Assembly (NCBI RefSeq): GCF_029892965.1 | Contig: NZ_JARXWN010000002.1 | Span: 124,001 to 188,000 of the forward strand | DNA from: Dysgonomonas sp. PF1-14 | Lineage (GTDB): Bacteria; Bacteroidota; Bacteroidia; Bacteroidales; Dysgonomonadaceae | Direction: 5' to 3' | Length of the DNA: 64,000 bases | Part shown: piece after piece, positions 26,324 to 44,258 of the stretch | Position numbering within the stretch: position 1 is the stretch's first letter | How the letters are laid out: every line of letters starts with the position of its first letter | Notes under the pieces: model-generated | The model's input: only the letters and a program-made list of their open reading frames with translations | Database searches by the model: none | Told to the model about the DNA's origin: nothing | Translations under genes and position numbers: made by a program

Positions 26324-26884
26324 GTTCAATTTGTATAATCTCAATCTTAGTCTGGAGTTAATAGATTTAGCTCATGACTAACGCGCACTCCTGTGCTTGT
26401 TTTTACTTTTGCATCGCCCAAAAGTAAACAAAAGTCTAGTGCTTCGCTCCTCAGCGACCTGTCAACGGTTTGACGGCTGAAGGGGACAAACGGGCTATCG
26501 CCCCATCCCCTTCTACGCCGCCTGCACCGGACAGGTGCCCACTTGCGGAGCTAATGCACAGAGTCGCACGCACCGACAAGGCAAGATAATCGCCAGCCCC
26601 GCGCCGTTAGCTTTATGGACGGGGCACCCGTAGGGTGAGAAAGGCGTAAAACAAAAAACGTGTTTGAGCTTAGCCGTTGGTTCGTATTATGTAAAAACCA
26701 TGAGCGAGTTTTTTTTGTTTAGCCTTTAAGCCCTATAACGGGTCGTCCTATGAAGCGGGGCGCTAAAGACTTTTTGATTCCTTTTGCGGCTTTGGGCAAA
26801 AGGAATACAAGCAATCTGTGATTGCGCGTAGAAAGAAATTGAACGTTTATTTGATATAACATCAAATACTGATTCGCATTATTA
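26324..26884 (+). repeat. Large GC-rich non-coding repeat, copy A (inverted partner at 43684-44258)
   Basis: About 561 bp that match the reverse complement of 43684-44258 at roughly 93-95% by eye, with the first 165 bp nearly identical. It starts at GTTCAATTTGTATAATC and ends at ATTCGCATTATTA; flanking sequence differs. The core (26400-26800) is far more GC-rich than the genome. It carries perfect hairpins near both ends: ACTTTTG/CAAAAGT (26405-26425) and ATTCCTTTTG/CAAAAGGAAT (26777-26806). No ORF is conserved between copies, since indels break every frame. It could be a structured RNA gene, a non-autonomous mobile element, or a chromosomal repeat. The rest of the 820-bp gap before the TonB-domain gene is AT-rich and empty. 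Confidence 0.8.
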
Positions 26885-26949
26885 GCTATAATTCATAATT
26901 CAATAGATAAACATTCTTAATAAGAATACAGCGATTTGAGGAATTTATT

Positions 26950-26957
26950 TATATTTG
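26950..26957 (+). promoter_or_regulatory. -7 promoter box for the TonB-domain gene
   Basis: TATATTTG lies about 75 bases upstream of the start at 27033 and immediately beyond repeat copy A. Confidence 0.4.
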
Positions 26958-27032
26958 CTTACAGAACGTCTATATTTTTCAAACTTAGGGGTTTTACATT
27001 TAGAGATATACGCCAGATTGAAACGACAAAAC

Positions 27033-27893
27033 ATGAGATATAAAACAATAATTCTTGCACTCACTTTACTCTTCTTCTGTACAGGGATTGCGGCAAAAGA
27101 TGGTATAACAGTCAGACCGATACAAACTGGCATAGCGACCGGGAATATTGTTGCTCCACAATTTCCCGGTGGGGAAGAAAGTTTATATGCATTTCTGAAA
27201 GAAAATATCATATATCCGCCTTTGCTGGTAAAAATAGAAATGGAAGGCGATATTAATATCCTGTTTACTATCAACAAGGAGGGTGTTGTTAAGAACGCTG
27301 AAATAGCGAAAGGATTTGATCCGCTGGCCGACAACGAAGTTCTCCGCGTAGTAAAAGCTATGCCCAGATGGACACCTGCATCCAAAAATGGAGAAACTAT
27401 AGACATACAGCAGGGACTGAATGTAACCTTTACTTTGAATGATGAACTGAAAGAATGGGTGAAGAAAAACGGTGTTAATACAGCTGCGACTCCTCCTATA
27501 AAATATCCTTCAGGTGTAGAAGTCGATAATATAACAAATGACTCTATAAACTCAAATACTTCTGTATCGGCCGTTGAATCCGACCCCTCACTCAATCGTT
27601 ATCCCGAATTTCCGGGTGGACAGGAGGCTTTAGATACTTATCTGCAAACAAACATGAAATATCCTAAAAGGGCTTTACAGTACGGTATAGAAGGACGTGC
27701 GATATACAATCTGCTGATAGAACCCGATGGCGAGATATCCAAAATCTGGGTGTTCAAGAGCTTGTTCCCCGACTGCGACCAAGAGGCATTTTACCTGATA
27801 AAGAAAATGCCGAAATGGACACCGGGGCTGAAAGACGGAAAACCTGTAGCCATGCAGGTAATGCTGCCCATACCATTTGTATTGCCTAAATAA
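27033..27893 (+). CDS. Exported protein with two TonB C-terminal domains
   Basis: The ATG at 27033 opens a signal peptide (MRYKTIILALTLLFFCTGIA); the reading frame continues upstream without need. The product is 286 residues. Two TonB_C repeats are visible. Residues about 45-140 contain 'PQFPGGEESLYAFLKENIIYP' and 'MPRWTPASKNG'. Residues about 190-286 contain 'PEFPGGQEALDTYLQTNMKYP' and 'MPKWTPGLKDGKPV'. Each has the PGG...YP...G.V..P..W.PA..NG pattern. It lacks the N-terminal membrane anchor and Pro-rich spacer of real TonB, so it is more likely a periplasmic accessory or signalling protein than an energy transducer. Confidence 0.8.
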   Translation: MRYKTIILALTLLFFCTGIAAKDGITVRPIQTGIATGNIVAPQFPGGEESLYAFLKENIIYPPLLVKIEMEGDINILFTINKEGVVKNAEIAKGFDPLADNEVLRVVKAMPRWTPASKNGETIDIQQGLNVTFTLNDELKEWVKKNGVNTAATPPIKYPSGVEVDNITNDSINSNTSVSAVESDPSLNRYPEFPGGQEALDTYLQTNMKYPKRALQYGIEGRAIYNLLIEPDGEISKIWVFKSLFPDCDQEAFYLIKKMPKWTPGLKDGKPVAMQVMLPIPFVLPK

Positions 27894-27896
27894 AAT

Positions 27897-27932
27897 AACA
27901 AAAGACTGAACCTTGAGATTCGGTCTTTTGTT
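27897..27932. terminator. Hairpin terminator after the TonB-domain gene
   Basis: AACAAAAGACTGAA and TTCGGTCTTTTGTT pair across a CCTTGAGA loop with one mismatch, a few bases past the stop. Confidence 0.8.
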
Positions 27933-27973
27933 TTAAATGCAACTATATTAAAACAGTATCGGAAATTTATTCA

Positions 27974-27981
27974 TAAATTTG
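27974..27981 (+). promoter_or_regulatory. -7 promoter box for the AI-2E family gene
   Basis: TAAATTTG lies 29 bases upstream of the start codon at 28011. Confidence 0.4.
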
Positions 27982-28010
27982 CATAAATTTAATTTTTCAA
28001 TCAGGAATAT

Positions 28011-29021
28011 ATGACGACAAAAGAACAGTACTGGAAATATACGCTCATCGCTCTTATCGTGTTTATGGCAATCCTACTGTTTCGCGAATATGCACCTTTC
28101 CTCAGCGGATTTCTCGGAGCCAGCACCGTATATATATTGGTCAGGAAGCAGATGTTCTACCTGATAGAAAAGAAAAAATGGGGGAGAAGCCTGTCTGCAT
28201 CGCTCATATTGGCCGAAGTGCTCCTTATCTTCCTCATTCCCTGCTCGTTTGCCGTATGGTTACTCATCCAAGAACTACATGGTATCAATCTAGACCCTTC
28301 CGCTACAATAAACGTCATACAAAAATTTGCCGATGCCATAAAAGAAAAAACAGGATACTATGTTCTTAGTACCGACAATATGGTGAAGGCCGCCGCGTAC
28401 CTGCCTAAAATAGGACAAATAATAATAAACAGTGTGAGTAGCTTTGTACTCAACTCGGTAATCCTGCTTTTTGTCCTCTACTTTTTGTTGATAGGCGGAC
28501 GAAAAATGGAAGAATACTTTTACGATCTCCTGCCATTCAACAATGCCAACAAGAAAGATGTACTACGCGAAGTAGATGTAATGGTAAAATCGAATGCTAT
28601 CGGGATTCCGCTACTTGCCATCATACAAGGATGCTTTGCATTTGCCGGTTATTGGATTTTCGATGTTCCCAACCCTGTTTTATTCGCATTTGTCACCTGC
28701 TTTGCTTCCATTATTCCGGTAGTAGGTACTATGGCCATCTGGTTCCCGATTGCTATATATATGGCAATCAGCGGCGATTGGATGAATGCACTTGGTCTGA
28801 CGGCTTATTCACTTATCGTAATCTCTAATGTCGACAATCTGTTACGCCTGTTTCTGCAAAAGAAACTGGCTAATATACATCCGCTAATCACCGTATTCGG
28901 GGTTGTGATCGGTTTGTCTGTATTCGGATTTTGGGGTGTGATATTCGGGCCACTGTACCTGTCGATGTTCGTATTACTTGTCAATATCTTCAAACAGGAA
29001 TATCTGGATAAGGATCGCTAG
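28011..29021 (+). CDS. AI-2E family transporter
   Basis: A 336-residue inner-membrane protein of the AI-2 exporter/PerM family with about eight membrane helices. The layout is typical: two or three N-terminal helices, a cytoplasmic or periplasmic loop with 'FADAIKEKTGYYVLSTDNMV', then 'FVLYFLLIGGRKMEEYFYDLLPF' followed by the 'AIIQGCFAFAGYWIFDVPNP' and 'PVVGTMAIWFPIAIYM' helices that define the family. Some members export autoinducer-2 and others are Na+/H+ antiporters, so substrate is open. It is monocistronic and convergent with the DMT exporter gene. Confidence 0.88.
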   Translation: MTTKEQYWKYTLIALIVFMAILLFREYAPFLSGFLGASTVYILVRKQMFYLIEKKKWGRSLSASLILAEVLLIFLIPCSFAVWLLIQELHGINLDPSATINVIQKFADAIKEKTGYYVLSTDNMVKAAAYLPKIGQIIINSVSSFVLNSVILLFVLYFLLIGGRKMEEYFYDLLPFNNANKKDVLREVDVMVKSNAIGIPLLAIIQGCFAFAGYWIFDVPNPVLFAFVTCFASIIPVVGTMAIWFPIAIYMAISGDWMNALGLTAYSLIVISNVDNLLRLFLQKKLANIHPLITVFGVVIGLSVFGFWGVIFGPLYLSMFVLLVNIFKQEYLDKDR

Positions 29022-29031
29022 AAAGGCGTAC

Positions 29032-29943
29032 CTACACAATATCGCTACGCTGTGCCGCCAGTCTGGCTCTCTTCTGTTCGTTCATTACAGACCACATTTG
29101 CAGCAATACTGATAATATGATCAGTAGTAGCCCGGCATAAAAGGAAACATTCAGCTCTCTGGCTTCACCGAATATTATCATAGCCAGAATGATACTGTAC
29201 ACCGGTTCGAGATTGTAACTGAGATTCATCGTAAAAGCCGAAACGCTCTTCAATGCCTGTATCTGCAACATATACAGCCCGATGGTACATACTGCCGCAA
29301 ACAGGAACAAATAGAGCAGATTGAGACTGTCCGGCACATACGATTCTACCGGAAAGAAGTATAGGTAAACAGGCATCATAAGGCTCAGGCAGGCAAAGCC
29401 ACCGATCATTTCGTAAAACAATGTTGTATCCCATGTATAGGAAGTGGTGCTCCCTACCCTCTTATTGGCAATGACAAAGCAGGCCGCCAATGCCGATGAT
29501 ATTGCACCCAGCAGTATTCCTGTACGGTAACGTGTATCGAAGTGGAAAATGAGGGCAACCCCACAAAGGGCAATTATGCTGAATAGCAATTCGCGTACCG
29601 AAATCTTCTTACGGCTAATCAACGGTTCGAAAATGGCGGTAAAGAATCCTGTCATAGAAAAGCAGACTACCCCGATAGATACATTCGAGGCTTTAATGCT
29701 AGCATAGAAAAACAGCCAGTGCAACATCAGCAGCAAACCCACAAAACCAATCTTCAACATATCGCGTAAAGGAATCACTTTCAGTTTTCGGGTAAACCAA
29801 AGCAGCAATAAGAGCATAATGGATGTAATCAGAATTCTGTACCACACCAGCATGCCTTCGTTCAATGTGATCAGCTTACCGAAGATTCCTGTAAATCCGG
29901 CAATAATGATAGATAGATGCAGTTTGATAAATGCCTGTTTCAT
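29032..29943 (-). CDS. EamA/DMT family exporter
   Basis: The ATG at 29943 starts just before the first membrane helix (MKQAFIKLHLSIIIAGFTGI) and is preferred over the open frame running upstream through a terminator. The product is 303 residues with ten hydrophobic helices in two EamA halves; the second half begins near 'TRYRTGILLGAISSALAACF'. The C-terminal tail is basic (NEQKRARLAAQR). Such proteins export amino acids, nucleosides or other metabolites; substrate unknown. Confidence 0.88.
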   Translation of the reverse strand: MKQAFIKLHLSIIIAGFTGIFGKLITLNEGMLVWYRILITSIMLLLLLWFTRKLKVIPLRDMLKIGFVGLLLMLHWLFFYASIKASNVSIGVVCFSMTGFFTAIFEPLISRKKISVRELLFSIIALCGVALIFHFDTRYRTGILLGAISSALAACFVIANKRVGSTTSYTWDTTLFYEMIGGFACLSLMMPVYLYFFPVESYVPDSLNLLYLFLFAAVCTIGLYMLQIQALKSVSAFTMNLSYNLEPVYSIILAMIIFGEARELNVSFYAGLLLIILSVLLQMWSVMNEQKRARLAAQRSDIV

Positions 29944-29988
29944 CAGTTGTAAGAATATCAGGCAAAGATAGGATTTTTCCATAAAGAA

Positions 29989-30018
29989 AAACCTCAAAGC
30001 TAAAAAGCTCTGAGGTTT
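29989..30018. terminator. Hairpin terminator of the interrupted receptor gene
   Basis: AAACCTCA and TGAGGTTT form the outer stem, with AGCT/AGCT pairing inside, 23 bases past the final stop of the receptor-like gene. Confidence 0.75.
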
Positions 30019-30040
30019 ACATATCATAAATTTTACGGGA

Positions 30041-32629
30041 TTATCCGCCCTGACCACCGCCTTGTCCTGTTGTCTGGCCACTACCTTGTCCACCACCCAT
30101 ATTGTCATCGTTGGTGATACCGCGCTGGGTTTTCTTTATCTGCGCTTTCATTTCACCTAAACGCAAAGAGAACGATATTCCGAAACGGCGCATACGATTA
30201 TTGAAAACAGTTTCAGAATAGAATATGTCTGTTGTATTTTTATTTCTGAACTCACGATCTTTAGTCAACGGATTGTCTACATAAGCTCTTACAGTCACTC
30301 CTTTCAGATGCTCATGCTTGATTTTAAATTCTTTGCTTAGAGAGAGCCCGTAAAAATAGAAAGATGGGCTTTTTCCCTGCAAGCTGATACGCGGGCTAAA
30401 GAAACCGCTATTCAGGTTGAACTGAAAATCTTTAGGCATCGAATATTATAATCCGGCAAATATATTACCGTTAAACCCATCGTTTGACAGATTACGGTCA
30501 TTATTGGTCTTGATACTTGTATAACGCCCCGACATATTGGTATACAGGCGAATCTTGGTAACATCGAATTTGATCTTTTTCATCAGCTCAGCAAAACCAC
30601 TGTTGCCACCCGGCGTCCAGTTCAGATAAACGGACAGTCCGGCGTTCCTCCGCTTCCCGATATTATCGTATGTGGTAAGGCTGATCCCTTCATCAGTTAT
30701 TGATGTAATCTCTTCGATGCCATTGTTTTCGAAATCGTAAGACAAGTTCAGATTCAGATTTAGTTTAGGACTGAAATATCCGTAATTGGAGCTTATCGAA
30801 TGAGTCTTTACTGCATCCAGTTCGGGGTTACCTACCTGTTGATAGTTGGCGTCAGAGGTATTATTATACGGATTGAGCTGCCAGATACCCGGACGCGATA
30901 TACGCATATTGTATCCCAGACGTATACTGTGCTGCATCTGTGGCTGATAGGTAAATGTAACGGAAGGGACAACATTGGAATAATCGACCTTGAAATTCTG
31001 CTCATCATTGATCGGGAACTTCGCATCGAGCCATGTAGACTCGTATCGTAGTCCGGCTTTCATTCCCCATTTATCGAGCTTTCCGCTATATCCTCCGTAT
31101 GCAGCTAGTATATCCTGACGATGCTTAAAGCGATCGTTATCCGATTCGTCAGGTGTCCAGTTCCCATCTGCGCCAAAGATATCTTTCCCACTATGACTCT
31201 GGTTGATACGGATTATGTATTTAGCTCCGGCTTCGAGCGTATGAGTGAAGAATTTCTTATCACTGACTTCTATCTTGCCAAGTGGCGTTACATAATCTAC
31301 CTGAAAAGTATGCTCTTTCATATCAGCATTGGTATATTGCGTATTGGTAACAGCGTCTTCGGGCAAAGTACCTGTGGCATTCAGTACATCTGTATTCGAT
31401 TTGGAATCGTCCGGATTGAGGCTTAAACGGTACGAAGCTGTCAGCAACCTGTCCTTCACGCTGAATGTACGTTGGTAGTCGGCATTCAGGTCTGTACCGC
31501 CATAGGTGCTTTTTGTATTTCCAAACTGATCGTAACTGTATCGGCTATTTCTGTCGGCATCAAGCATTTCATTGAATCGCTCTATTGTTGACTTTCCGGT
31601 GCCATAGTAGCGGTTGAAGCCTACATTAATCAGATTGAGTGTATCTATTTCATAACTCAACTCTCCCGAACCATACTGCCCGTTTCCGTTATTCTTATTA
31701 AATCCGTTTTGATACAGATATTTACTCTCTGAGGCAATAGGCATATCACTGATATTTTCCCTGTAAGAAGAGTATTCTCCCCTAGGGCGTTTCCATTCGT
31801 AATAGTTGTATCCTCCTGTAAAGCCGATTTTACCTTATTTCAGCGACAGGTACACACCTCCTCCCAGAGCGCCCATATTGTCGATCCGTCCGTTCACAGT
31901 AGCTGTGTATCCACCCATCGAAGAGTCTTTCAGAGTTATTATATTAATAATACCCGCCACACCTTCGGCATCGTACTTAGCTCCCGGATCGGTTATTACT
32001 TGTATGTCCTTTATCGTATTGGCAGGCATACTGCGCAGTACATCTTTCGGGTTGCTGCTTATCATGTTCGACGGTTTTCCATTCAGGTATATTTTGAAAC
32101 TGGAAGAACCTTTCAATTGTATATTTTCGTCTCCGTCGACAGTTATCAGCGGCACTTTTTTCAGCATATCCAGTACATTATTGGTCTTAGCTTCGGGATC
32201 ATCTTCCATGCTGTAGGTTATTTTATCCAGATCTACTTTTACCAATGGTTTTTGAGCCGTAACTTCAATCTCGCTCAGAGCTTGCGCATTGTCGCTCATT
32301 TCTATAATACCCAAGTCCAGTGTTCTGGCTTCCCCTATTTCTATTTCTCTTGTTGTGGTCTTCTTCCCGATATACTCAGACAAAAGAAGATAATTCCCTT
32401 TTTTATTCATCGTAAATTGAAACTTACCATTATCATCAGTCGCCAATGCTTTTACCATAGTGGCAGGATTGTCTTTTGACATAATCTTAAGAGTTGCATA
32501 AGGGATTGTTTCTTTTGTCAGCGAATCGGTTACCTGTCCTTTTACTGTTACATTTATAATGCTATGCTGGGCAAAGGCAAAAGAAAGGTTGATAGACAAA
32601 ATGAGTATCAACAAAATACGTTTTCTCAT
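30041..32629 (-). pseudogene. TonB-receptor-like outer-membrane beta-barrel gene with two in-frame TAA codons
   Basis: One continuous frame of 863 codons with a signal peptide (MRKRILLILILSINLSFAFA), a carboxypeptidase-regulatory-like domain (about 27-105), a TonB plug domain (about 115-245, 'MEDDPEAKTNNVLDMLKKVP', 'ITDPGAKYDAEGVAGIINI') and a large beta-barrel (outer membrane beta-barrel family, OMP_b-brl_3-like). It ends in a Gly/Gln-rich tail. Codon 265 (31835-31837) and codon 728 (30446-30448) are TAA; the frame is the same before and after each. Reading through gives LK-stop-GKIGFTGGYNYY and FAGL-stop-YSMPKDF, where family members would be expected to continue; both fit CAA (Gln) to TAA. 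No frameshift is seen. It is either a recent pseudogene or a read-through case. Confidence 0.85.
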
Positions 32630-32806
32630 ACGATAATACTGAATATATTGTTTTTAATATAAATAGCCGAAATTGGCGAACGCGAAGATATGAATAGAAT
32701 CATATCACAGATTATCTGCTTATTATTTTTTCGCAACAATTATAGGTTTTCTCACTTTTATTCTATCTTTTTTATCTATTTTAACATTGTAGCTATTGCC
32801 AAGTTT

Positions 32807-32851
32807 CGGGCGAAAGATATTTGACTTCGTCGATTTTCAATTCGTTCCCAC
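32807..32851 (-). repeat. Dispersed GTAGGRGCGAA palindromic repeat, copy 2
   Basis: On the minus strand it reads GTGGGAACGAATTGAAAATC then GACGAAGTCAAATATCTTTC and GCCCG. The unit at 61861 shares GAACGAATTGAAAATCGACG with one change and the following AGTCAAA. It lies between the receptor gene and the NhaC gene. Confidence 0.6.
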
Positions 32852-32888
32852 ATCTGTTAAAAACATCCATTCCGCTTGATTTTTGTTT

Positions 32889-32896
32889 TATCTTTG
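32889..32896 (+). promoter_or_regulatory. -7 promoter box for the NhaC-like antiporter gene
   Basis: TATCTTTG lies 31 bases upstream of the ATG at 32928. Confidence 0.45.
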
Positions 32897-32927
32897 CAGC
32901 CGGATTCAACAATAGTGTACACTCACA

Positions 32928-34232
32928 ATGGATAAATACAGAAAATGGTATCATTCTAAAGGCTGGGCATTAATACCACTGGCCGTATTCTTTTTATTAT
33001 ATGTACTCACATTTATATTCACAGGCGACCTGTATCAGATGCCTGTATCGGTAGCCTTCATGGCAGCATCTGTTGCTGCCGTACTCTATTCGAAAGGGGG
33101 AAAGTTGTCGAACCGCATAACGCAGTTTTGCAGAGGAGCAGCCAACGAAACCATTATGCTGATGGTGGTTATCTTCATTCTGGCTGGCGCATTTGCAGGC
33201 ACAGCCAAAGCAATGGGTGCGGTAGATGCCACAGTGAATATGATGTTGTACCTGTTACCACAGAAGACCATTCTCGCCAGTGTGTTTATTGCCGCCTGTT
33301 TTATATCCATGTCGATGGGAACATCCACAGGCACTATTGCTGCGCTGGCTCCTATAGCTGTGGGTGTTTCGGCACAGGCAGGCATCGACTTGCCACTGAT
33401 GCTGGGTGTGGTGGTCGGCGGAGCCATGTTTGGCGACAACCTGTCGTTTATATCCGACACTACGATTGTAGCCACACGCACGCAAGGCTGTAATATGCAG
33501 GACAAGTTTAAAGTGAATATAAGAATTGTACTTCCGGTAGTCCTCATCGTATTAGGTATATACATATATCAGGGGCTGGAACTGACGGGCGGTACTCCTG
33601 TATCGTTCGATCAGGTAGAATGGCTCAAGGTGCTTCCCTATCTGGCTGTACTGATAGCTGCCCTTGCCGGAGTCAACGTTATGGCAGTGCTGGCTCTGGG
33701 CATAATTCTGTCGGGAGCAATCGGGCTTTTTACAGGAGGTTTCGGCGTATGGGACTGGACTAAGGCTATGAGCAATGGTATTGTAGTAGACATGGGGGAA
33801 CTCATTATAGTATCGCTGATGGCAGGCGGAATGTTTGAACTGATACGCTTCAATGGCGGTATTGATTGGCTGATAGAGAAAATGACACGCAATATACGGT
33901 CGAAGCGCTCTGCCGAATTTTCGATAGCCGGACTGATCTCCTTTACCAACCTATGTACGGCAAACAATACCATAGCCCTGATAATAAGTGGGCCTATTGC
34001 AAAAAACATCAGTGATAAGTTCGATCTCGACAACCGGAAGATAGCTAGTCTGCTCGATACATTTTCCTGCTTTGTGCAGGGGCTTATCCCTTACGGAGCG
34101 CAACTACTGATTGCGGCCGGACTGGCAAAGGTCAGCCCGATGGAGATAGTACCTAATCTCTATTATCCGTTTCTGATAGGAATAGCGGCTGTTGCATCTA
34201 TCGTATTCCGCTACCCGAGAAAGTACGCGTAA
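32928..34232 (+). CDS. Na+/H+ antiporter, NhaC family
   Basis: A 434-residue inner-membrane transporter with about 11-12 helices. It contains the NhaC/ArsB-superfamily stretches 'SMGTSTGTIAALAPIAVG' (about 126-143) and 'GAMFGDNLSFISDTTIVATRTQG' (about 164-186), in which Asp and Ser residues line the ion path in this family, and the late 'NLCTANNTIALIISGPIA' segment. The function is likely sodium or pH homeostasis, or substrate/Na+ exchange as in NhaC relatives such as MleN. It is a single gene. Confidence 0.87.
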   Translation: MDKYRKWYHSKGWALIPLAVFFLLYVLTFIFTGDLYQMPVSVAFMAASVAAVLYSKGGKLSNRITQFCRGAANETIMLMVVIFILAGAFAGTAKAMGAVDATVNMMLYLLPQKTILASVFIAACFISMSMGTSTGTIAALAPIAVGVSAQAGIDLPLMLGVVVGGAMFGDNLSFISDTTIVATRTQGCNMQDKFKVNIRIVLPVVLIVLGIYIYQGLELTGGTPVSFDQVEWLKVLPYLAVLIAALAGVNVMAVLALGIILSGAIGLFTGGFGVWDWTKAMSNGIVVDMGELIIVSLMAGGMFELIRFNGGIDWLIEKMTRNIRSKRSAEFSIAGLISFTNLCTANNTIALIISGPIAKNISDKFDLDNRKIASLLDTFSCFVQGLIPYGAQLLIAAGLAKVSPMEIVPNLYYPFLIGIAAVASIVFRYPRKYA

Positions 34233-34372
34233 GTTCAAAATATTGAGGTATCACTATTCTTTCATATCCAATATAGTTAAATAAGGTTAACGAGTAGGCG
34301 TGATAAAACAGATAAGACACTGTAAATAAAGAGTATATCCGTTTCGCGAACTTGTGTGTATAGTACTGTGTA

Positions 34373-34404
34373 TTGCAAGGTACTAATATTAATTTATATA
34401 TTTG
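34373..34404 (+). promoter_or_regulatory. Promoter of the PspC-PadR-PspC operon
   Basis: TTG (34373-34375), a 21-base spacer and TATATTTG (34397-34404) match the Bacteroidota consensus closely. The start codon is 37 bases downstream. Confidence 0.6.
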
Positions 34405-34440
34405 CATTACAAACAACATTGTATAATATAATAGTAGGTT

Positions 34441-35025: not shown

Positions 35026-35128
35026 AAATTTAATGTCATATTTTTTATGCAGCAGATAACGCTTATATAAGCAACCTGATAACGAATCTGAAATTTTATA
35101 AAAAATATTACGACTAAAATTAAACAAA

Positions 35129-35464: not shown

Positions 35465-35475
35465 TTTATACGGCG

Positions 35476-36981: not shown

Positions 36982-37139
36982 GTTGGTCTTGCTGTATTGT
37001 GCATAAATAAAGGTTTTTAGTATCGATAATGATAAAGTTATTACTGTAGTCAGAAATTCGGGTGGGGTATTTAACATATTTTCACTCGAATTTTTATAAA
37101 AAAATGCAATAATACACCGTATATCTCGTTATAATTATG

Positions 37140-37147
37140 TAATTTTG
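37140..37147 (+). promoter_or_regulatory. -7 promoter box for the 37178 lipoprotein gene
   Basis: TAATTTTG lies 30 bases upstream of the start codon. The gap 36982-37177 is AT-rich and otherwise empty. Confidence 0.35.
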
Positions 37148-37177
37148 TGAAATAACCTTAATTTGAAGGTTGTAAAT

Positions 37178-37648
37178 ATGAAATATCTGATATACATACT
37201 TTTACCACTTATGGTTTTTGCGTTGACTTTTACATCCTGTGATAAGGACGACAGTTCATATAGCAAAGGTGTAGAAGGGCATTGGGTGCACATTTCCACC
37301 AAAGCCGAAGTGTATGTCAACGATCCTGCCATAAGACAAAAAGTAGAAGACTACATTGTCAACAGAAATACCAAGTTTGTTGTCAGCTACGAATTCAAGA
37401 ACGATAAGACTTATTACTATTATCAGGATTATTCCGATCCGATAAAAGGCATATACAAGGTTATGGATAAGAATATGTTCTCGATGGACGATTCCAGAGG
37501 CATGAGAACAGTTGTAAAAGAAGATTCCATTATCTATATCGTTACCGACATGAAGAGTGAAATAGCAGAGGAACTGAATATCGACGAAAAGATACTTGTA
37601 AAAGTGAATGCAATAGATACATTCGAGCGGGGACTGTTCACAGAATAA
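37178..37648 (+). CDS. Small lipocalin-like lipoprotein
   Basis: The ATG at 37178 opens a lipoprotein signal (MKYLIYILLPLMVFALTFTS) with lipobox FTSC, followed by DKDDSS, the acidic pattern associated with surface export. The product is 156 residues. The mature domain begins 'GVEGHWVHIST' (GxW) and continues with short beta strands such as 'VVSYEFKNDKTYYYYQDY', ending in 'VNAIDTFERGLF'. It belongs to the broad lipocalin-like lipoprotein group of Bacteroidales. Ligand unknown. Confidence 0.65.
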   Translation: MKYLIYILLPLMVFALTFTSCDKDDSSYSKGVEGHWVHISTKAEVYVNDPAIRQKVEDYIVNRNTKFVVSYEFKNDKTYYYYQDYSDPIKGIYKVMDKNMFSMDDSRGMRTVVKEDSIIYIVTDMKSEIAEELNIDEKILVKVNAIDTFERGLFTE

Positions 37649-37677
37649 AAAAGCATAACATTTATTTAACTGAAATA

Positions 37678-37710
37678 AAAAACCGGAAAGTATTTTACTA
37701 TCCGGTTTTT
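37678..37710. terminator. Bidirectional hairpin terminator
   Basis: AAAAACCGGA and TCCGGTTTTT pair around AAGTATTTTACTA, between convergent stop codons at 37648 and 37731. Confidence 0.8.
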
Positions 37711-37730
37711 CTTTTCACTATCCGTTTGTT

Positions 37731-38453
37731 TTAGAACTCCATAGGCACATCTATCAGTAATATGCGGGCATTATCCGATTCGGCGGTTATTTTTACATCG
37801 CTTACATCCCAGATACCCAAAGCATCCCTGTGGTGCAATTTCTGGTCGCCGATGGAGAATTCACCTTCTACTACCATCGCAAATACGCCATTGCCGGCTT
37901 TCTTTACTTTGTAGTCTATCACTTTCCCTTTATCGAAAGTTCCCATACTGAACCATGCACTCTGATGTATCCACAATCCTGTGTTATCGGCATCGTTTTT
38001 CGGGCCTACAATCTGTATCAGCGCATTCTTATTATCTATAAAGTCGAATGCCCTTTGGTCATAACGGGGCGTCACGTTTTTTGTATCGGGAAACACCCAT
38101 ATCTGGAAAAAGCTGACAGGCTTGTATTCATTCGAGTTATACTCGCTGTGTGTAATACCTGTTCCGGCACTCATTACCTGTATCTCTCCTGCTTTTATGA
38201 CTTCGGTATGTCCCATACTGTCTTTATGTTCCAAATCGCCATATAACGGTATAGATACTATTTCTATATTGTCATGCGGATGGGTACCAAAACCTTCTCC
38301 TCCTGCTACTATGTCATCGTTCACTACACGAAGCGCACCGAAATTAATACGCTCAGGATTATAATAATTAGCAAAACTGAAAGTATGATGAGTATTTAAC
38401 CAGCCATGATTGGCATGTCCTCTTGAAGATGCACGGTACAATGTTGTTTTCAT
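37731..38453 (-). CDS. Pirin family protein (quercetinase-like bicupin)
   Basis: A 240-residue cupin protein. The metal ligands of pirins are all present: His58 and His60 in 'FGTHPHDN', and His102 and Glu104 in 'GTGITHSEYN'. The N-terminal 'RGHANHGWLNTHHTFSFANYY' is the family signature. Bacterial pirins bind Fe or another divalent metal; some cleave quercetin (EC 1.13.11.24), while others act as redox-sensitive regulators. The length (about 240) matches E. coli YhhW-type proteins. It has its own promoter at 38532-38562. Confidence 0.92.
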   Translation of the reverse strand: MKTTLYRASSRGHANHGWLNTHHTFSFANYYNPERINFGALRVVNDDIVAGGEGFGTHPHDNIEIVSIPLYGDLEHKDSMGHTEVIKAGEIQVMSAGTGITHSEYNSNEYKPVSFFQIWVFPDTKNVTPRYDQRAFDFIDNKNALIQIVGPKNDADNTGLWIHQSAWFSMGTFDKGKVIDYKVKKAGNGVFAMVVEGEFSIGDQKLHHRDALGIWDVSDVKITAESDNARILLIDVPMEF

Positions 38454-38531
38454 AATTATGTTCCTTTCTTTTTATTATAATTTTATTTATCTGAAAACTC
38501 TTATTTTGAATAGCATTCTATTATTATAGTA

Positions 38532-38562
38532 CAAAGGTAACGCCATTAAATGTATTTACAAA
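38532..38562 (-). promoter_or_regulatory. Promoter of the pirin gene
   Basis: On the minus strand TTTG (38559-38562), a 19-base spacer and TACCTTTG (38532-38539) fit the Bacteroidota consensus well. The leader is about 70 nt. The rest of the 320-bp gap to the next gene is AT-rich and empty. Confidence 0.6.
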
Positions 38563-38734
38563 ATAATAAAAATAATACATATGTATAAATATATTAATAC
38601 ATTGTAATGTGATAAAAATAGATCAAATATGGGTACCCGATAAGATTATAATAGATATATAACAACTATTGTAGAAATTTGATTCCCAGATCAAAACTTT
38701 TCGGATATTATTCTTCCATTTCATAATGATTTAG

Positions 38735-38742
38735 TAACTTTA
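38735..38742 (+). promoter_or_regulatory. -7-like box for the 38774 secreted protein gene
   Basis: TAACTTTA lies 31 bases upstream of the ATG, one base off the TAnnTTTG consensus. Confidence 0.3.
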
Positions 38743-38773
38743 CGAATGGAGTAATTAATTAATACGGGAAGTC

Positions 38774-39538
38774 ATGAAAAAACTACTCTTCATATCATTA
38801 CTGGCAATATCTGCTACAGTATATGGGCAGACAGAAACTCCCAGAGATACTTTTCCGCCCTTCAAGAAAGAGCCTTTACGGCTGAATGAGAAACTCGATA
38901 ATTATCTGGATTTCGGCACACAAAACAACAACGAGCGTCCGGCGTCCAATGCTGCTTTGTATGAGCCATTCCAGAAGGAAGTTCCCAAGTCTATCGAACT
39001 GAATATGCCGCCATTGGATATTTACACAGGCCCGCCACTGGAAAGCAATACATTTACACGTTATCCTTTTGCCAACGACTACTCGTTCTTTTCGGGGCAT
39101 GCCATATCTGACAATGCTTGGCTTAGCTCTGCTTCGATACAGAATACCTACCCTACACTGGGAGCTGTGAGGACGGTTAACATGAATTTCAATTATCAGC
39201 CGCTGGATTGGCTGGCTGTTTCGGCAGGCCCATACGGTTCGAAGTATAATCTGGGTATGCAATCCTTTAATGATGTAGGTGTGAATGGTGCGGTGAAATT
39301 TATCCTGCACGACCGAATCCGGCTAAACGCTTACGGACAATATTCTGTAAACCAAAAGAGTAACGGAGTACAAGGCCCGATGATGGGGATGTTTCCCCAG
39401 ACATATTACGGAGGGACGATCGAAGTAAAAATAACCGAGAAATTCGGAGTAGAGGGCGGAATAATCCGCGAACTAAACCCATTCAATGGTAAATGGGTGA
39501 ACAGGCCTTACTTTGCTCCGGTGTTTTATACCAAATGA
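38774..39538 (+). CDS. Secreted, probably outer-membrane-associated protein of unknown function
   Basis: A 254-residue exported protein with signal peptide MKKLLFISLLAISATVYGQ. The N-terminal quarter is Pro/Asn-rich and charged. From residue about 120 the sequence shows amphipathic strands ('RTVNMNFNYQPLDWLAVSAGPYGSKYN', 'LHDRIRLNAYGQYSVNQ', 'GGTIEVKITEKFGVEGGI') like a small outer-membrane barrel, but the C-terminus (PVFYTK) does not end in the usual aromatic residue. No known family is recognised. It stands alone. Confidence 0.65.
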   Translation: MKKLLFISLLAISATVYGQTETPRDTFPPFKKEPLRLNEKLDNYLDFGTQNNNERPASNAALYEPFQKEVPKSIELNMPPLDIYTGPPLESNTFTRYPFANDYSFFSGHAISDNAWLSSASIQNTYPTLGAVRTVNMNFNYQPLDWLAVSAGPYGSKYNLGMQSFNDVGVNGAVKFILHDRIRLNAYGQYSVNQKSNGVQGPMMGMFPQTYYGGTIEVKITEKFGVEGGIIRELNPFNGKWVNRPYFAPVFYTK

Positions 39539-39641
39539 TATAAATATTTTTTATCTGTAATAGCTATATTTATTTATGGAAATATGGCTATTATTGCATC
39601 TATATGCATAATACTGATTTTTCTTTGCGGTTTATTTATAA

Positions 39642-39823
39642 GAGCCTGTTTAAATTTTATTCGTTTAGGTTTTCAGCACTATTTTTGGAATGATTTTTTC
39701 TTATCTGAAGCGCGAATAGCGGGCTATTCAAGCTGAAGAAAGGGGAAAATCGGACAAAAAGAGACTGAAAATGAACGAAAAAAGAACGATAACAAAATGT
39801 TTTGGTAAAATTTAAACAGGCTC
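39642..39823. mobile_element. Miniature inverted-repeat element 2 (MITE-like, 182 bp)
   Basis: The ends are perfect 18-bp inverted repeats: GAGCCTGTTTAAATTTTA at 39642-39659 and its complement at 39806-39823. A 3-bp TAA direct repeat flanks the element (39639-39641 and 39824-39826), fitting a TNA target duplication. The interior has no ORF and contains a smaller palindrome (CGAATAGCGGGCTATTC). The terminal sequence shares TGTTTAAATTT with the element at 874-1044. It sits 32 bases before the next gene's ATG, so it probably forms part of that gene's leader or promoter. The parent transposase is not in the window. Confidence 0.7.
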
Positions 39824-39855
39824 TAAGAAAAAGAAAGAATAAAGAGAAGAACAAA

Positions 39856-40359
39856 ATGATAAAGAAACTTTCACTTATTACATTTATAACATTCATCCTT
39901 TCGGCTTGCGGAAGCCCGACACAACTATTGGTGAGAAACGATACTACATACAATGTAGATGTGTATCTTACTGCTTATACAAAACGTTTTGGAAGCAAAT
40001 ACACTGTGATGCCGACCAAAAGGCTTATAGTAGGAGAGTATAAGAATAATGCTAATGAGTTTGTGACAACGCCTTATATGTTTATCCGGCAACGCGAAAT
40101 AGTAAGTGACAGCACAATATATGCAGGCAGCGAAAGTCTGAGCAAACTATCTATATATGAGCAGGATACGCTTAGAGTAGACAATGCCTTTGTCGACAGT
40201 ATTTTTGACCATATCAAAACCATACACCCAAAGAAAAAACCGAAAGAAATAATCTGGGAGTTTCAGGATTCCCTGTTTCAATCCGGTATAGTAAAACATA
40301 CCCGAGGACTGCGCCTGACATCAGGACGTATTATACAGCAACAACCTTTTACGGATTAA
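39856..40359 (+). CDS. Small lipoprotein of unknown function
   Basis: The ATG at 39856 starts a lipoprotein signal (MIKKLSLITFITFILSACG, lipobox LSAC); an in-frame start 18 codons upstream lies inside the miniature element and is less likely. The product is 167 residues. The mature part is beta-rich ('DVYLTAYTKRFGSKYTVMP') with a charged helical C-terminus. It is followed 30 bases later by the DUF1287 gene and may be co-transcribed with it. The family is not recognised. Confidence 0.65.
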   Translation: MIKKLSLITFITFILSACGSPTQLLVRNDTTYNVDVYLTAYTKRFGSKYTVMPTKRLIVGEYKNNANEFVTTPYMFIRQREIVSDSTIYAGSESLSKLSIYEQDTLRVDNAFVDSIFDHIKTIHPKKKPKEIIWEFQDSLFQSGIVKHTRGLRLTSGRIIQQQPFTD

Positions 40360-40389
40360 CACACTCGGAAGAAATATAAAACTATAGAT

Positions 40390-40920
40390 ATGAAAAAGAT
40401 TTACATTTTCCTGCTGCTTTTCGTCATTTCGTTGGCAACCGTAGCACAGGAAATCAACTTTTATAAGCGGCTGTCGGATGCAGCACTGGAACTGACAAAA
40501 GACAAAGTGACATATGATCCTCGCTACTACTCCATACCATATCCTAACGGGGATGTAGCACCTAATATCGGGGTTTGTACAGATGTGATTATCAGAGCAT
40601 ATCGAAAACTGGGGATCGACCTGCAAAAGAAGATACACGAGGATATGAAATCTAATTTCAGTAAATATCCTAAACTATTCAATGCAAAGGGTACGGACAA
40701 AAATATAGATCACCGCAGAGTACCCAATCAGGCTACATTCTTTTCACGCTTCGGCACAGTAAAGAAAATATCTGACAAAGGTGAAGATTATCTGCCGGGT
40801 GATATTGTTACATGGGATCTCGGGAACGGTATCAGGCATGTAGGCATAGTGACAGACAGAATGTCAACAGATAAAAAACGACCACTTATAGTGCACAATA
40901 TAGGAAGTGGTCAGGTGTAA
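40390..40920 (+). CDS. DUF1287 protein, probably C-terminally truncated
   Basis: A 176-residue exported protein with signal peptide MKKIYIFLLLFVISLATVAQ. The NlpC/P60-like DUF1287 domain shows Cys63 in 'NIGVCTDVIIRAYRKLGIDL' and His in 'LGNGIRHVGIVTD'. The last segment 'LIVHNIGSGQV' is where homologues, as I recall them, continue for about 15-20 residues towards a GHYRY-type end; here a TAA follows, and a palindromic sequence begins about 50 bases later. So the gene may be slightly truncated. Catalytic residues are retained. Role: presumed amidase or peptidase acting on the envelope, unproven. Confidence 0.78.
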   Translation: MKKIYIFLLLFVISLATVAQEINFYKRLSDAALELTKDKVTYDPRYYSIPYPNGDVAPNIGVCTDVIIRAYRKLGIDLQKKIHEDMKSNFSKYPKLFNAKGTDKNIDHRRVPNQATFFSRFGTVKKISDKGEDYLPGDIVTWDLGNGIRHVGIVTDRMSTDKKRPLIVHNIGSGQV

Positions 40921-40973
40921 AAAATGGGACTCGATCTTACAGACACTCAAAATAAGTTTCAGCTAATCTGACA

Positions 40974-41043
40974 ACATTTTTCTCTTTCAAACGCCCTCTA
41001 AGGGCTTTTGGGGAGGGGATTTGAAAGAAAAAAATGTATTTTG
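40974..41043. repeat. Palindromic element downstream of the DUF1287 gene
   Basis: ACATTTTTCTCTTTCAAA and TTTGAAAGAAAAAAATGT are near-perfect inverted arms (17 of 18), enclosing GC-rich CCCTCTAAGGGC and GGGGAGGGGA stretches. A further CTCAAAATA/TATTTTGAG pair lies outside. It could be a terminator-like structure or an inserted REP-type unit. The 250-bp gap contains no other recognisable feature. Confidence 0.5.
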
Positions 41044-41169
41044 AGGTTGAATTTCATCTGACAGTAGAAATTGTATGATCGAGTATCAACTTTAGCAGGT
41101 CAGGTCTTGGAAGATTGCCTCTTCAGTTTTAAAATAACAGGGCACTACTGCTATAAATAAAGATATTTA

Positions 41170-42132
41170 TCAATCAGCTTTATTTTTCTTGATCAGAGGT
41201 TTTATTTTCTTTATGGCATCGCGGGCTATTTCATTCGCTTCGGCTTCGTTATGAGGGTCTAGAGCTATTACTTTTTTGTAATCTCCTACAGCTTTTTCGT
41301 ACTCCTTGTTCAGTTCGTGTATTCCTGCCCTTTTAAGGAAAGGGGTTATACTTGTAGAATCCAGTGATATAGCTTTACTGTAATCAGTTAATGCTTTGTC
41401 CAGCAAGTCTTGCTTGATATATGCCTCTGCCCTGTTACGATACGCATTAATGTTTGCCGTATCTTTACTGATCGCTTTACTGTAATCGTCTACCGCTTTA
41501 TCATAAGCTTCCTTTGCCAGATATATATTTCCCCGGTTGTTATATACATCGGCTATATATGCAGGATTACCTTTAATTGCCCGGTTATAATCGGCGAGGG
41601 CTTCATCATACTTCTTACTCTTTTCGTAGATTATCCCCCTGTTGTAATAAGCATCAGTATGATCGGGATTCAGCGATAAGGCTCTGTTATAGTCTTTCAC
41701 AGCCAGGCTGTCTCTTTTCAGTTTCTGATAAATGCATCCTCTGCTGTAATATCCGCGCGACGAAGAAGAGTCTATATTGATAATCATATTTGTATAAACT
41801 ATCGCTTTAGGATACTCTTTCATCTGAAGGTATTCGTTGCTGATATATGCATTGCCATCCATCAGTAACATATTCTTCTTTCGGGGGGTTATCAATGCTT
41901 TATCTTCATTTATATTTGCTATAATCGTTTCAAAAGCCTTAATCCGCTCTTTATGTGTATCGAGGCTGTCTTTAACACGTCCCAACTGATATCTGAAAAT
42001 AGCGATATGTTTATCCTGATTGATTTCTTTATCGAATAATCCGCATGATGACACAGAAATGGCCATCAACAGCATGGCTATATAGTATCTTTTTATATAC
42101 AGCACTCGCAATATAAGAGTAGTTTTTACCAT
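41170..42132 (-). CDS. TPR-repeat lipoprotein
   Basis: The ATG at 42132 is chosen because it puts the hydrophobic segment and lipobox (SVSSC, Cys near residue 30) at the right place; the open frame extends 28 codons upstream. The product is 320 residues. After a helical region there are about five or six TPRs between residues 120 and 300, e.g. 'AYYNRGIIYEKSKKYDEALADYNRAI' and three similar units with NRG/RA-EAY patterns and final Asp-Pro turns. The tail is Lys-rich. TPR lipoproteins usually scaffold envelope complexes; the partner is unknown. Confidence 0.82.
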   Translation of the reverse strand: MVKTTLILRVLYIKRYYIAMLLMAISVSSCGLFDKEINQDKHIAIFRYQLGRVKDSLDTHKERIKAFETIIANINEDKALITPRKKNMLLMDGNAYISNEYLQMKEYPKAIVYTNMIINIDSSSSRGYYSRGCIYQKLKRDSLAVKDYNRALSLNPDHTDAYYNRGIIYEKSKKYDEALADYNRAIKGNPAYIADVYNNRGNIYLAKEAYDKAVDDYSKAISKDTANINAYRNRAEAYIKQDLLDKALTDYSKAISLDSTSITPFLKRAGIHELNKEYEKAVGDYKKVIALDPHNEAEANEIARDAIKKIKPLIKKNKAD

Positions 42133-42260
42133 ACGTAGAGGATATGAGTTAAAAAACCTGTAATGGATGTTCCCCGCAAAGATACAAAAAAAACACAAAA
42201 ATGAGATGTTTATCATTTGTCTTGATCATAACGAAATATTGTGACAGCGATATTAATAAA

Positions 42261-42289
42261 AAAACGCCAGTCCTCGCGGATCAGCGTTT
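42261..42289. terminator. Second hairpin downstream of the MBL gene
   Basis: AAACGC and GCGTTT pair around a GC-rich loop (CAGTCCTCGCGGATCA). It lies between the MBL gene and the TPR gene, both on the minus strand. Confidence 0.45.
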
Positions 42290-42432
42290 CTTTGCGTCGT
42301 AGTGTATTGTTTAAATAAAAGTAGTGATAGAATCAATCAAAAGATGTAACCTCTATCTATTATAGAAAACGGAAGAAATGTATCTGTGTTACACCTTATT
42401 CCTGATTTTTTTCTAAAAAATCATTAAAAAGA

Positions 42433-42454
42433 AAACCTATCGGTTGATAGGTTT
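42433..42454. terminator. Hairpin terminator of the MBL gene
   Basis: AAACCTATC and GATAGGTTT form a perfect 9-bp stem around GGTT, 27 bases past the stop codon at 42481. Confidence 0.8.
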
Positions 42455-42480
42455 ATATCTGAATCAAAATGAATATTCTT

Positions 42481-43302
42481 TCAGTCGGATATCAATGCTT
42501 TATAGTTATCATTTAGTCTTTTCACTTTACTCTTTACTGTCACTGCATCGTGGCAATATATCAATGTATATCTGTTACTTACAGCTTCGGACAAGAAGCG
42601 TTCTTTCTCGTTAGCCGATGTCAGGGCAGCTATATCGTATGCCGATATCCACTCCAACGGGATGTGTGCCGATGTAGGAATAAGGTCTCCCGGAAAAGTG
42701 CAAATACCATCACCGGTATCTATATATGCAACTATCTGTCCTGCCGTATGTCCGTCGAAAAGCCGCATTTCAAAGCCATCGCATAATTTCATATCGGCAT
42801 CTATAAAAGATAGCTGTCCTGCATTATATACAGGGTAGATATTATCAGAGAAAACGGAATCGATCTCTAAAACATTCGGATTCAAAAGATTATCCCACTG
42901 ACGGCTACTAAGCCAATATCTGGCATTCGGGAATGAAGGTATCATTATACCTCCTTCATCCTTGCACGTAGCATATCCGCAATGGTCGAAATGCAAATGA
43001 GTGAGTACAACATCGGTTATATCCTCAGCGCTATATCCGAAATCACGTATAGCATCTCCTATATTTACCAGATCGTAAGGACGATAGTAAGAAACTCTAT
43101 CGAGGTGCTTATCGCCCATTCCGGTATCTATCAGTATTTTACGTTCGTCTGATATAGCCAGTACACAACGCATTACCAACGGACAAAGGTTTTCAGCATC
43201 GGATGGGTATTTCCGTTGCCATGCACGTTTTGGGATAGCGCCGAACATTGCGCCCCCGTCTGCCATTATATATCCGCTGTCGATAATCTTTATTTCAAAC
43301 AT
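42481..43302 (-). CDS. MBL-fold metallo-hydrolase
   Basis: A 273-residue metallo-beta-lactamase-fold hydrolase. The zinc-binding HxHxDH motif is THLHFDHCGY (His102, His104, Asp106, His107). A further His occurs in 'FDGHTAGQIVAYIDTG' and in the late 'LIYCHDAVTVK'. The N-terminal 'ILIDTGMGDK' is also conserved. It is cytoplasmic, and the length and motif spacing fit the general lactonase/hydrolase-like group (AiiA-type neighbours) rather than true beta-lactamases. Substrate unknown. It is a single gene with its own terminator. Confidence 0.88.
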   Translation of the reverse strand: MFEIKIIDSGYIMADGGAMFGAIPKRAWQRKYPSDAENLCPLVMRCVLAISDERKILIDTGMGDKHLDRVSYYRPYDLVNIGDAIRDFGYSAEDITDVVLTHLHFDHCGYATCKDEGGIMIPSFPNARYWLSSRQWDNLLNPNVLEIDSVFSDNIYPVYNAGQLSFIDADMKLCDGFEMRLFDGHTAGQIVAYIDTGDGICTFPGDLIPTSAHIPLEWISAYDIAALTSANEKERFLSEAVSNRYTLIYCHDAVTVKSKVKRLNDNYKALISD

Positions 43303-43321
43303 GATGCTAATATACTAAAAA

Positions 43322-43352
43322 AGAAGAGACGGTTGTCTCAACCATCTCTTCT
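43322..43352. other. Perfect-ended hairpin upstream of the MBL gene
   Basis: AGAAGAGA and TCTCTTCT flank GGTTG/CAACC with one mismatch on each side. It lies 20-50 bases upstream of the MBL start codon, so in that transcript it would be a leader hairpin. It could also terminate a minus-strand transcript entering from repeat copy B. Confidence 0.45.
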
Positions 43353-43434
43353 CGGACCTTAACACTAATATAAAACTAACATATACTATGATAAAACAGG
43401 TACAAAATCAACTAAACAATCTATCTAACACACT

Positions 43435-43530
43435 ATGAAAAAAGTAAGATATACCTGTTTATCTATAGAACATTGTTTACTCTGTCTTTGTTCAGTTGTA
43501 TGGTTATATATTTTATCTATTTTCGAATAA
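43435..43530 (+). CDS. Possible 31-residue small protein
   Basis: An ATG with an MKKVRYTCLS start, a Cys- and Leu-rich hydrophobic middle (HCLLCLCSVVWLYILSI) and a stop at 43528-43530. The composition resembles a small membrane peptide. There is no clear ribosome-binding site or conserved neighbour, and it lies in a 1.4-kb region without other genes. Low confidence; chance ORF is quite possible. Confidence 0.2.
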   Translation: MKKVRYTCLSIEHCLLCLCSVVWLYILSIFE

Positions 43531-43683
43531 ACATCATCAATATTTATGCGGAGTATAGCAAGTGCATAAAGAATGAAAAAATTATCAATAGAGAAAGCGT
43601 TTTTAGAGAAACTATAGATTTAACTAATTTGAGATTTAATAAAAGAAAGAGTGAAAAATAGCCAAATGTGTAAAGTTTTTTAT

Positions 43684-44258
43684 TAATAATGCGAATTTCA
43701 GTAGTTGATGTTATATTAAATAATCGTTCAATTTCTTTCTACGCGCAATCACAGATTGCTTGTATTCCTTTTGCCCAAAGCCGCAAAAGGAATCAAAAGT
43801 CTTTAGCGCCACGCTTCATAGGACGACCCGTTATAGGGCTCAAAGGCTAAACAAAAAAACTCGCTCATGGCTTTTGCATTATACGAACCGACAACTAAGC
43901 TCAAACACGTTTTTGTTTTACGCCTTTCTCTCCCTACGGGTGCCCCGTCCATAAAGCTAACGGCGCGGGCTGACGCTCGAATGAGTGACGATTACCCTGC
44001 CTTGTCGGCGCGTCGCGACTCTGTGCATTTGCTCCGCAAGCGGGTACCTGTCCGGTGCAGGCGGCGTAGAAGGGGATGGGGCGATAGCTAGTTTGTCCCC
44101 TTCAGCCGTCAAACCGTTGACAGGTCGCTGAGGAGCGAAGCACTAGACTTTTGTTTACTTTTGGGCGATGCAAAAGTAAAAAGAAGCACAGGAGTGCGCG
44201 TTAGTCATGAGCTAAATCTATTAACTCCAGACTAAGATTGAGATTATACAAATTGAAC
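43684..44258 (-). repeat. Large GC-rich non-coding repeat, copy B (inverted partner of 26324-26884)
   Basis: The reverse complement matches copy A throughout. It has a 15-20-bp insertion around 43970-43990 (GTCACTCATTCGAGCGTCAG) that copy A lacks, and scattered substitutions. Both terminal hairpins are conserved (CAAAAGT/ACTTTTG side and the ATTCCTTTTG side). The ORFs inside, e.g. one of 74 codons at 43867-44091, are not conserved in frame in copy A, so they are not counted as genes. The 1.4-kb region between the MBL gene and glmS contains this repeat, short TTTTAGTTAAAA repeats at 44300 and 44460, and otherwise AT-rich sequence. Confidence 0.8.

Follow-up and report, generated by a model that had tools for sequence, protein, structure and literature searches.

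Two long inverted repeats, here called A and B, face each other across about 17 kb of a 64,000-nucleotide stretch of the Dysgonomonas sp. PF1-14 genome (contig NZ_JARXWN010000002.1, positions 124,001 to 188,000; hereafter the window, with coordinates counted from its first base), and they raise the question of what kind of element they represent and whether they have turned the DNA between them. The reading that we favor, at a probability of roughly 0.7, is that A and B are insertions of a ~590-bp non-autonomous transposon of the miniature inverted-repeat transposable element (MITE) class, bounded by terminal inverted repeats (TIRs), and that the two copies likely recombined, inverting the 17-kb segment.

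Local alignment of A (26315-26884) with B in reverse orientation (44267-43684) gave 542 identical columns of 587 (92.3%), and BLASTN of the window against itself found no further repeat of similar length. This confirms the pair of long inverted repeats recognized in a preliminary description of this DNA and their high identity, although the 93-95% estimated there comes down to a measured 92-93%. The ends set by eye were too short: the TIRs extend A to 26289-26879 (591 bp, plus strand) and B to 43689-44284 (596 bp, minus strand), and the position 43684 from which B had been counted takes in one copy of a TATTA duplication. Other features noted at that stage held up on measurement. The G+C content is 0.625 in the 200-base core of A against 0.40 for the window, the repeats are non-coding in that no open reading frame (ORF) of at least 80 amino acids was found inside A or B, and the two hairpins described as perfect, hp1 (ACTTTTG-CATCGCC-CAAAAGT, 26405-26425, minus strand) and hp2 (ATTCCTTTTG-CGGCTTTGGG-CAAAAGGAAT, 26777-26806, plus strand), are both exact in A. 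A genome-wide search for hp2, written as CCTTTTG...CAAAAGG, gave 33 places, whereas the backwards pattern gave 0.

The order along the element is TIR, hp1, a structured module on the minus strand, a structured module on the plus strand, hp2 and TIR. In copy A, the left TIR region (ATACCAATCAGTATTTGA..., 26289-26333, plus strand) is followed by a covarying left module with hp1 as its 3' hairpin and a GATA apex (26402-26548, minus strand), a covarying right module that includes hp2 and a CAATC/GATTG hairpin (26600-26829, plus strand), and the right TIR (...TACTGATTCGCAT, 26835-26879, plus strand). In copy B, the right module occupies 43741-43967 (minus strand; covariance-model match C2:167741-167967, minus strand) and the left module with hp1 occupies 44034-44180 (plus strand).

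The two repeats belong to a dispersed family. BLASTN of A against its own genome (4.58 Mb in 49 contigs; 40 of 75 first-look candidates scored) returned 57 pieces, which we merged by eye into 40 places, and further searches added three, for a family of at least 43 places, some of them fragmentary. Copies come in two main sizes, ~590 bp and ~400 bp, the latter consisting of the right half only with a left end of its own. Thirteen of 25 genomes of the genus, PF1-14 counted, contain a BLASTN match, and a low-stringency BLASTN of A against plasmid and phage collections gave no match in either. The ends are set by the TIRs, which read ATGCGAATCAGTA(G/T)TTGA... at one end and its inverse at the other. 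None of the 25 PF1-14 copies checked overlaps an ATG-initiated ORF longer than 150 amino acids by more than 100 nt. Two PF1-14 loci (L047, 993-1049, 57 bp, and L045, 2545-2587, 43 bp, on contigs C7 and C10) consist of back-to-back TIRs with almost nothing between them.

Target-site duplications were scored in oriented copies from PF1-14 and other species of the genus (73 in total), using the 22 in which both ends had at most three mismatches and leaving out the other 51. An exact 5-bp duplication was present in 11 of these 22 two-ended copies and one with a single mismatch in 5 more, whereas mispaired flanks, taken from the left and right sides of different copies, matched exactly in 13 of 462 cases (2.8%). 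The duplications in the family are mostly A/T-rich. Copy B, which was outside the 22 because of a small insert in its right end, is flanked by TATTA on both sides (43684-43688 by direct reading at its right end and 44285-44289 at its left, minus strand). The element behaves as a MITE, showing three of the four defining features that were tested: it is short, non-coding and multicopy, it has TIRs, and it has target duplications, with many intergenic copies as in MITEs generally. Both the family and its duplications support the suggestion in the preliminary description of a non-autonomous mobile element. Insertion would be carried out by a DDE-type transposase, a putative enzyme acting in trans on the TIRs and making a 5-bp staggered cut.

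One copy in a relative (locus L065; genome G019, C1:994300-995500) is closely followed by an ORF whose product looks, by eye, like the small terminase subunit of a phage, pointing to a possible insertion in a prophage. Orientation was counted by eye for the 22 copies listed in this closed genome: below 2.6 Mb, 12 are plus and 2 minus, and above it 4 are plus and 4 minus. The AT skew of the genome switches sign near 2.6 Mb, and its GC skew is weak; we draw no conclusion on strand bias, as each element itself consists of two inverted modules.

The interior of the element is under selection for its fold. For the right module, 31 sequences picked for diversity from 67 aligned gave an RNAalifold structure of 58 pairs, 27 of which change on both sides, with 97.7% of cells paired. 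The alignment contains 127 double-change cells compared to 35.6 in shuffles, none of 500 of which reached this value, and sliding the pairing partner by one to three columns left at most 20. Read on the opposite strand, the left half forms a second module built in the same way, head-to-head with the first. Its alignment of 20 of the 37 extracted sequences, from which we left out near-duplicates, a long-insert subgroup and ragged sequences, gave 42 pairs, 16 with double changes, and 58 double-change cells compared to 18.7 in shuffles (0 of 500 as high), while for the count of further pair types, one of five measures, 10 of 500 shuffles did as well. All 37 sequences together gave a weak consensus (-22.5 kcal/mol) because one subgroup has a long insert. 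Sequence kinship and the derivation of structure from the same alignment inflate such counts, but the shuffled and slid controls lie far off. Fold z-scores agree with the covariation. For the right module they are -5.0 when it is folded as RNA and -4.9 when it is folded as DNA, values equaled by 0 of 200 shuffles; for the left module, folded as RNA, the z-score is -4.1, equaled by 1 of 200. Thus, the selection on DNA or RNA structure proposed from the hairpins is supported, and the folded single strand of each module, whether RNA or single-stranded DNA (ssDNA), is conserved by compensatory change.

The two mispairs that a strand-specific fold treats differently are unequal in number. In the right module, G-U outnumbers A-C by 112 to 12 cells, or by 50 to 12 when pairs that are G-U in every row are excluded; counted by pairs, 21 of 58 are ever G-U and 11 ever A-C. 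In the left module, the ratio is 57 to 10. This excess argues that one strand is under selection and is easier to reconcile with RNA or ssDNA than with a cruciform. The same tolerance of G-U on one strand, together with the strong covariation and the conserved internal-loop sequences of the right module (which also has an extra variable hairpin), is what one would expect if the element encoded a structured non-coding RNA acting in trans or in cis, such as a small RNA, a ribozyme or a transcript-protecting or -terminating structure, for which the TIRs were merely the vehicle. We regard this alternative as possible, at odds clearly below even. Copy A has no match in Rfam 15 at E values up to 1, and among 11 loci of relatives the only Rfam 15 matches were a 6S-type RNA and a tRNA, both outside the module. 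The loops also point away from RNA: GNRA is the pattern favored in RNA, whereas the left-module apex, which is GNNA in 19 of 20 sequences and GATA in 17 of these, mostly does not fit it, and in the wider group of capped hairpins described below, apices on good stems are mostly GNA triloops, as in stable DNA mini-hairpins. The element offers a simple test of ssDNA versus RNA selection.

Gene order in related species bears on the second half of our favored reading, the inversion between A and B. The segment between the copies (26880-43683) holds ordinary chromosomal genes, encoding TonB, an AI-2E transporter, EamA, a TonB-dependent receptor, a Na/H antiporter, PspC, PadR, pirin, DUF1287 and TPR proteins and a protein of the metallo-beta-lactamase fold. 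The glgA-glgP pair on its left is conserved in all 22 relatives found, and the 3' flank of the pair in these relatives yielded neither the element nor TonB (the flank covered was 1.5 kb in 20 relatives and shorter or absent in two, where the contig ends). In relatives G019, G003 and G006, the AI-2E and TonB genes, both on the minus strand, are divergent from and adjoin glmS on the plus strand. In the window, TonB and AI-2E lie to the right of A and glmS lies to the right of B, and flipping the DNA from A to B restores the order of the relatives. In addition, G019 and G006 have glgP on the side where it is expected, at a distance of ~13-15 kb, and G001 has a glmS-g38774-DUF1287-TPR block in the un-flipped orientation, although the stretch fetched from that genome yielded no TonB gene. 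All four informative relatives, of ten with larger stretches, support an inversion in the PF1-14 lineage with its ends at A and B, implying that recombination between A and B, or their insertion at the breakpoints, accompanied the turning of the segment. This bears out the earlier suggestion that copies in this arrangement could flip the DNA at 26.9-43.7 kb. It is most likely that A and B, being inverted and 92% identical, recombined and turned the 17-kb segment; inserted copies would serve as substrates for homologous recombination, and exchange between A and B would flip what lies between them.

Alternatively, other events could have inverted the segment, with A and B inserted later at the two breakpoints. 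The fluid gene order of the genus and the location of several element copies at gene-order breakpoints are compatible with this sequence of events, which we nevertheless find unlikely given that both ends of one clean flip are two inverted, 92%-identical copies and that a single flip restores the order found in four relatives. There is a second sign of rearrangement: the gene that follows glgP in G001, G009 and G010 (second after it in G011) adjoins another element copy in PF1-14, where it lies ~30 kb upstream of glgP. The window is a concrete case of two such copies marking the ends of a chromosomal inversion.

Two genes of the segment drew attention in their own right. The TonB-dependent receptor family gene seems to be split into a barrel part (30446-31744) and a plug with N-terminal part (31835-32629), on the minus strand, and the TonB-like protein directly right of A (26955-27893, plus strand) contains two TonB_C stretches that are about one third identical.

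Several observations weigh against a MITE insertion followed by an A-B inversion. Six of the 22 two-ended copies mismatch at two to four of the five target bases, copy A itself has no target duplication (its flanks are AAATC and TATTA), and the flanks of the minimal TIR-TIR palindromes L047 and L045 have no exact 5-bp duplication. When the flanks of A, B and the copy at C2:75786 were compared with those of relatives, the empty site could not be placed at base level because the intergenic DNA is too diverged. For the inversion, six of the ten relatives were uninformative (G002, G004, G005, G010, G017 and G020), since their fetched stretches contained no glmS; the TonB homologues used are 50-54% identical, with orthology assigned by neighborhood; and gene order is poorly conserved in the genus. 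The element also differs from known MITEs, which one review describes as typically AT-rich (PMC10969869), in its GC-rich core with two conserved structured modules. Finally, neither the TIR scan of the PF1-14 genome nor that of viral contigs found a transposase or a longer element with these TIRs that could be recognized as a parent insertion sequence; descent from an autonomous insertion sequence with the same ends is the fourth of the MITE features considered above.

That search covered ten PF1-14 regions around TIRs outside known copies, of which two were listed for ORFs and the rest scanned for partner TIRs. No recognized partner adjoined the isolated TIRs, and no transposase was seen by eye in the two ORF-listed regions. 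An exact TIR scan of viral contigs gave four matches, three of them identical in sequence and one at the edge of a prophage contig, none of which is an evident element. Among ORFs of at least 80 amino acids within 2.5 kb of the apical motif at 196 loci, the 40 largest clusters contained no clear recurrent partner protein; most clusters came from related prophages, and two drew on genome loci (12 and 8 of the 116), the larger of which overlaps the motif. As no mobilizing enzyme was found, it may have been lost from PF1-14 or may be one that was not recognized. A right-end-like TIR lies near base 95 of the viral contig L536, at the edge of a prophage contig and without the rest of the element.

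A specific candidate for the missing enzyme is a Y1 (HUH) transposase of the REP-associated tyrosine transposase (RAYT) type, where REP stands for repetitive extragenic palindrome. The modules would then be relatives of REPs and of the bacterial interspersed mosaic elements (BIMEs) that they form, mobilized by a RAYT of the Bacteroidetes subclass 2.6, a subclass described as having atypical flanking secondary structures with copies elsewhere in the genome (PMC6006769). The resemblance lies in paired opposite hairpins, high copy number and single-strand folding, and PF1-14 has one match to Y1_Tnp (PF01797), a domain present in 13 of 30 chosen genomes. In contrast, the modules measure ~150-230 nt compared to the 20-40 bp of REP palindromes, the GTAG-type tag of REPs follows the last hairpin in some element copies whereas others have GCAG, and the element has TIRs and 5-bp duplications with no Y1 transposase adjoining. 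When tried as a partner, the domain failed: no module, by covariance model or apical motif, was present near any of 22 Y1_Tnp match loci (flanks up to 1.5 kb; some loci are pieces of one gene), and the module-rich genomes G003, G006 and G036 have 18, 33 and 33 module-model matches yet no Y1_Tnp match. Elements moved by a RAYT would not be expected to have TIRs and 5-bp duplications, and we consider mobilization by such an enzyme improbable. A double-stranded DNA structure or protein site (a nucleoid, gyrase or replication element) acting as a cruciform would suit the near-palindromic plan with hairpins at both ends, but we give it very little credence, as a cruciform folds both strands and would show G-U about as often as A-C, against the ratios of 112 to 12 and 57 to 10, and as the element is patchy among the genomes of the genus.

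Returning to the MITE-class element, we used its right module to trace related folds. Of 61 genomes sampled from the family, 30 (PF1-14 counted), spread over 10 of 15 genera, had a match to a covariance model of this module, with at most 37 candidates scored per genome. When 148 genomes were sampled from the phylum under stricter filters, with 15 candidates scored per genome, matches were limited to PF1-14 and one other. In most low-copy genomes, the match was limited to a core of ~90-190 nt capped by TGTTTGAGC-GNA-GCGAGTT or a sequence near it. A scan of public genomes for this cap, with GNA fixed, found at least 116 stretches, of which the 80 listed include Bacteroidota, beta- and gammaproteobacteria, Lachnospiraceae, Clostridia, Desulfuromonadales, Desulfobacula, Nitrospirales, Nitrospinota, Gastranaerophilales, Patescibacteria and Aminicenantes. 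Sufficient flank was available in 112 distinct cases; on average, 11.15 of 20 bases were complementary between the two arms next to the cap, compared to 7.36 between arms of different loci, indicating that the stems carrying the cap differ in sequence yet are paired. None of 14 loci of this wider group reached the Rfam 15 gathering score.

The apices of the wider group read GCGNAGC with all four bases at N, both where the pattern fixed GNA and where the loop was left free. In viral contigs scanned without constraint on the three loop bases, GNA was present in 14 of 18 cases with stems of at least 10 compared to 13 of 48 with stems of at most 8 (Fisher p 0.0005); this set comprised 120 stretches, 78 of them distinct with flanks, with membership inferred from locus numbers and 40 rows unlisted. 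Most of the viral matches, being poor-stemmed, are probably due to chance. Of 25 places listed for Bacteroidota genomes, 23 have GNA, and a single genome accounts for 13 of them. A motif tally across 296 genomes, with matches in 7 and backwards-control matches in 6, is not evidence of enrichment because the backwards control overlaps the motif, and we used stem complementarity instead. DNA mini-hairpins with GNA or GNNA loops are described as extraordinarily stable when at least two G-C pairs close the loop (PMC4686876). The GCGNAGC apices resemble them; the window copies differ in that the left-module loop is of the GNNA type (GATA) and the right module has an additional variable hairpin.

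The covariance model reaches other Bacteroidales (G310, E 3e-5; G140, E 8e-15). It gave an E value of 0.41 for one Haemophilus locus (L262) and no match for another (L235) or for a Variovorax locus (L202). All five close inverted pairs seen (within 300 bp, at L202, L235, L262, G058 and G140) are head-to-head with the minus module on the left and the plus module on the right, as in the window copies, and hairpins flank both sides of the Haemophilus and Variovorax pairs that we printed. Beyond Bacteroidales, kinship may be suggested by motif and plan at non-significant scores, and either common descent or convergence may account for it. The Haemophilus loci, with their plan of hairpin, minus module, plus module and hairpin, may correspond to the Haemophilus intergenic dyad sequences (IDS), a candidate identity by plan. 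IDS are described as dyad repeats thought to be important for gene-locus mobility (PMC4144887). Within Bacteroidales, the element can be likened by description, not by sequence, to BrickBuilt, a MITE of Porphyromonas gingivalis that differs in carrying a minisatellite (PMC4596501). No description of the element appeared in the literature searched by motif string or term, a search whose coverage mostly excluded subscription journals.

A broader proposal is that the window contains one lineage's version of a largely unnamed class of folded-strand selfish elements found across many phyla, each with the plan hairpin, module, inverted module, hairpin and with ultra-stable DNA mini-hairpin apices (GNA or GNNA loops), spreading without a transposase of their own through recognition as folded ssDNA by a common host or phage enzyme, and acting as a recurrent source of inversions. 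We hold this doubtful. Our favored reading goes less far: the modules resemble the wider capped-hairpin group, which may spread as folded single strands, either ssDNA or RNA, that a host or mobile-element protein would recognize, and the TIRs of this lineage package two such modules. The element is of interest as a strongly covarying fold present in tens of copies per genome without an Rfam 15 match or a found protein partner; naming the recognizing factor would account for a common kind of intergenic repeat in the family, and perhaps in many phyla. In G310, which belongs to another Bacteroidales family, twelve modules of one kind lie within 80 kb (C2:303157-382488, loci L468-L470); these modules stop directly after the 3' hairpin, and no TIR was seen there.

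Elsewhere in the window, two other pairs of short dispersed repeats are present, at 986-1050 and 9485-9549 (89% identical) and at 32808-32863 and 61850-61904 (84% identical). The sole Rfam match in the window is a DUF805 RNA (RF03081, 67.5 bits) at 50927-50993 on the plus strand, just upstream of an ORF at 51015.

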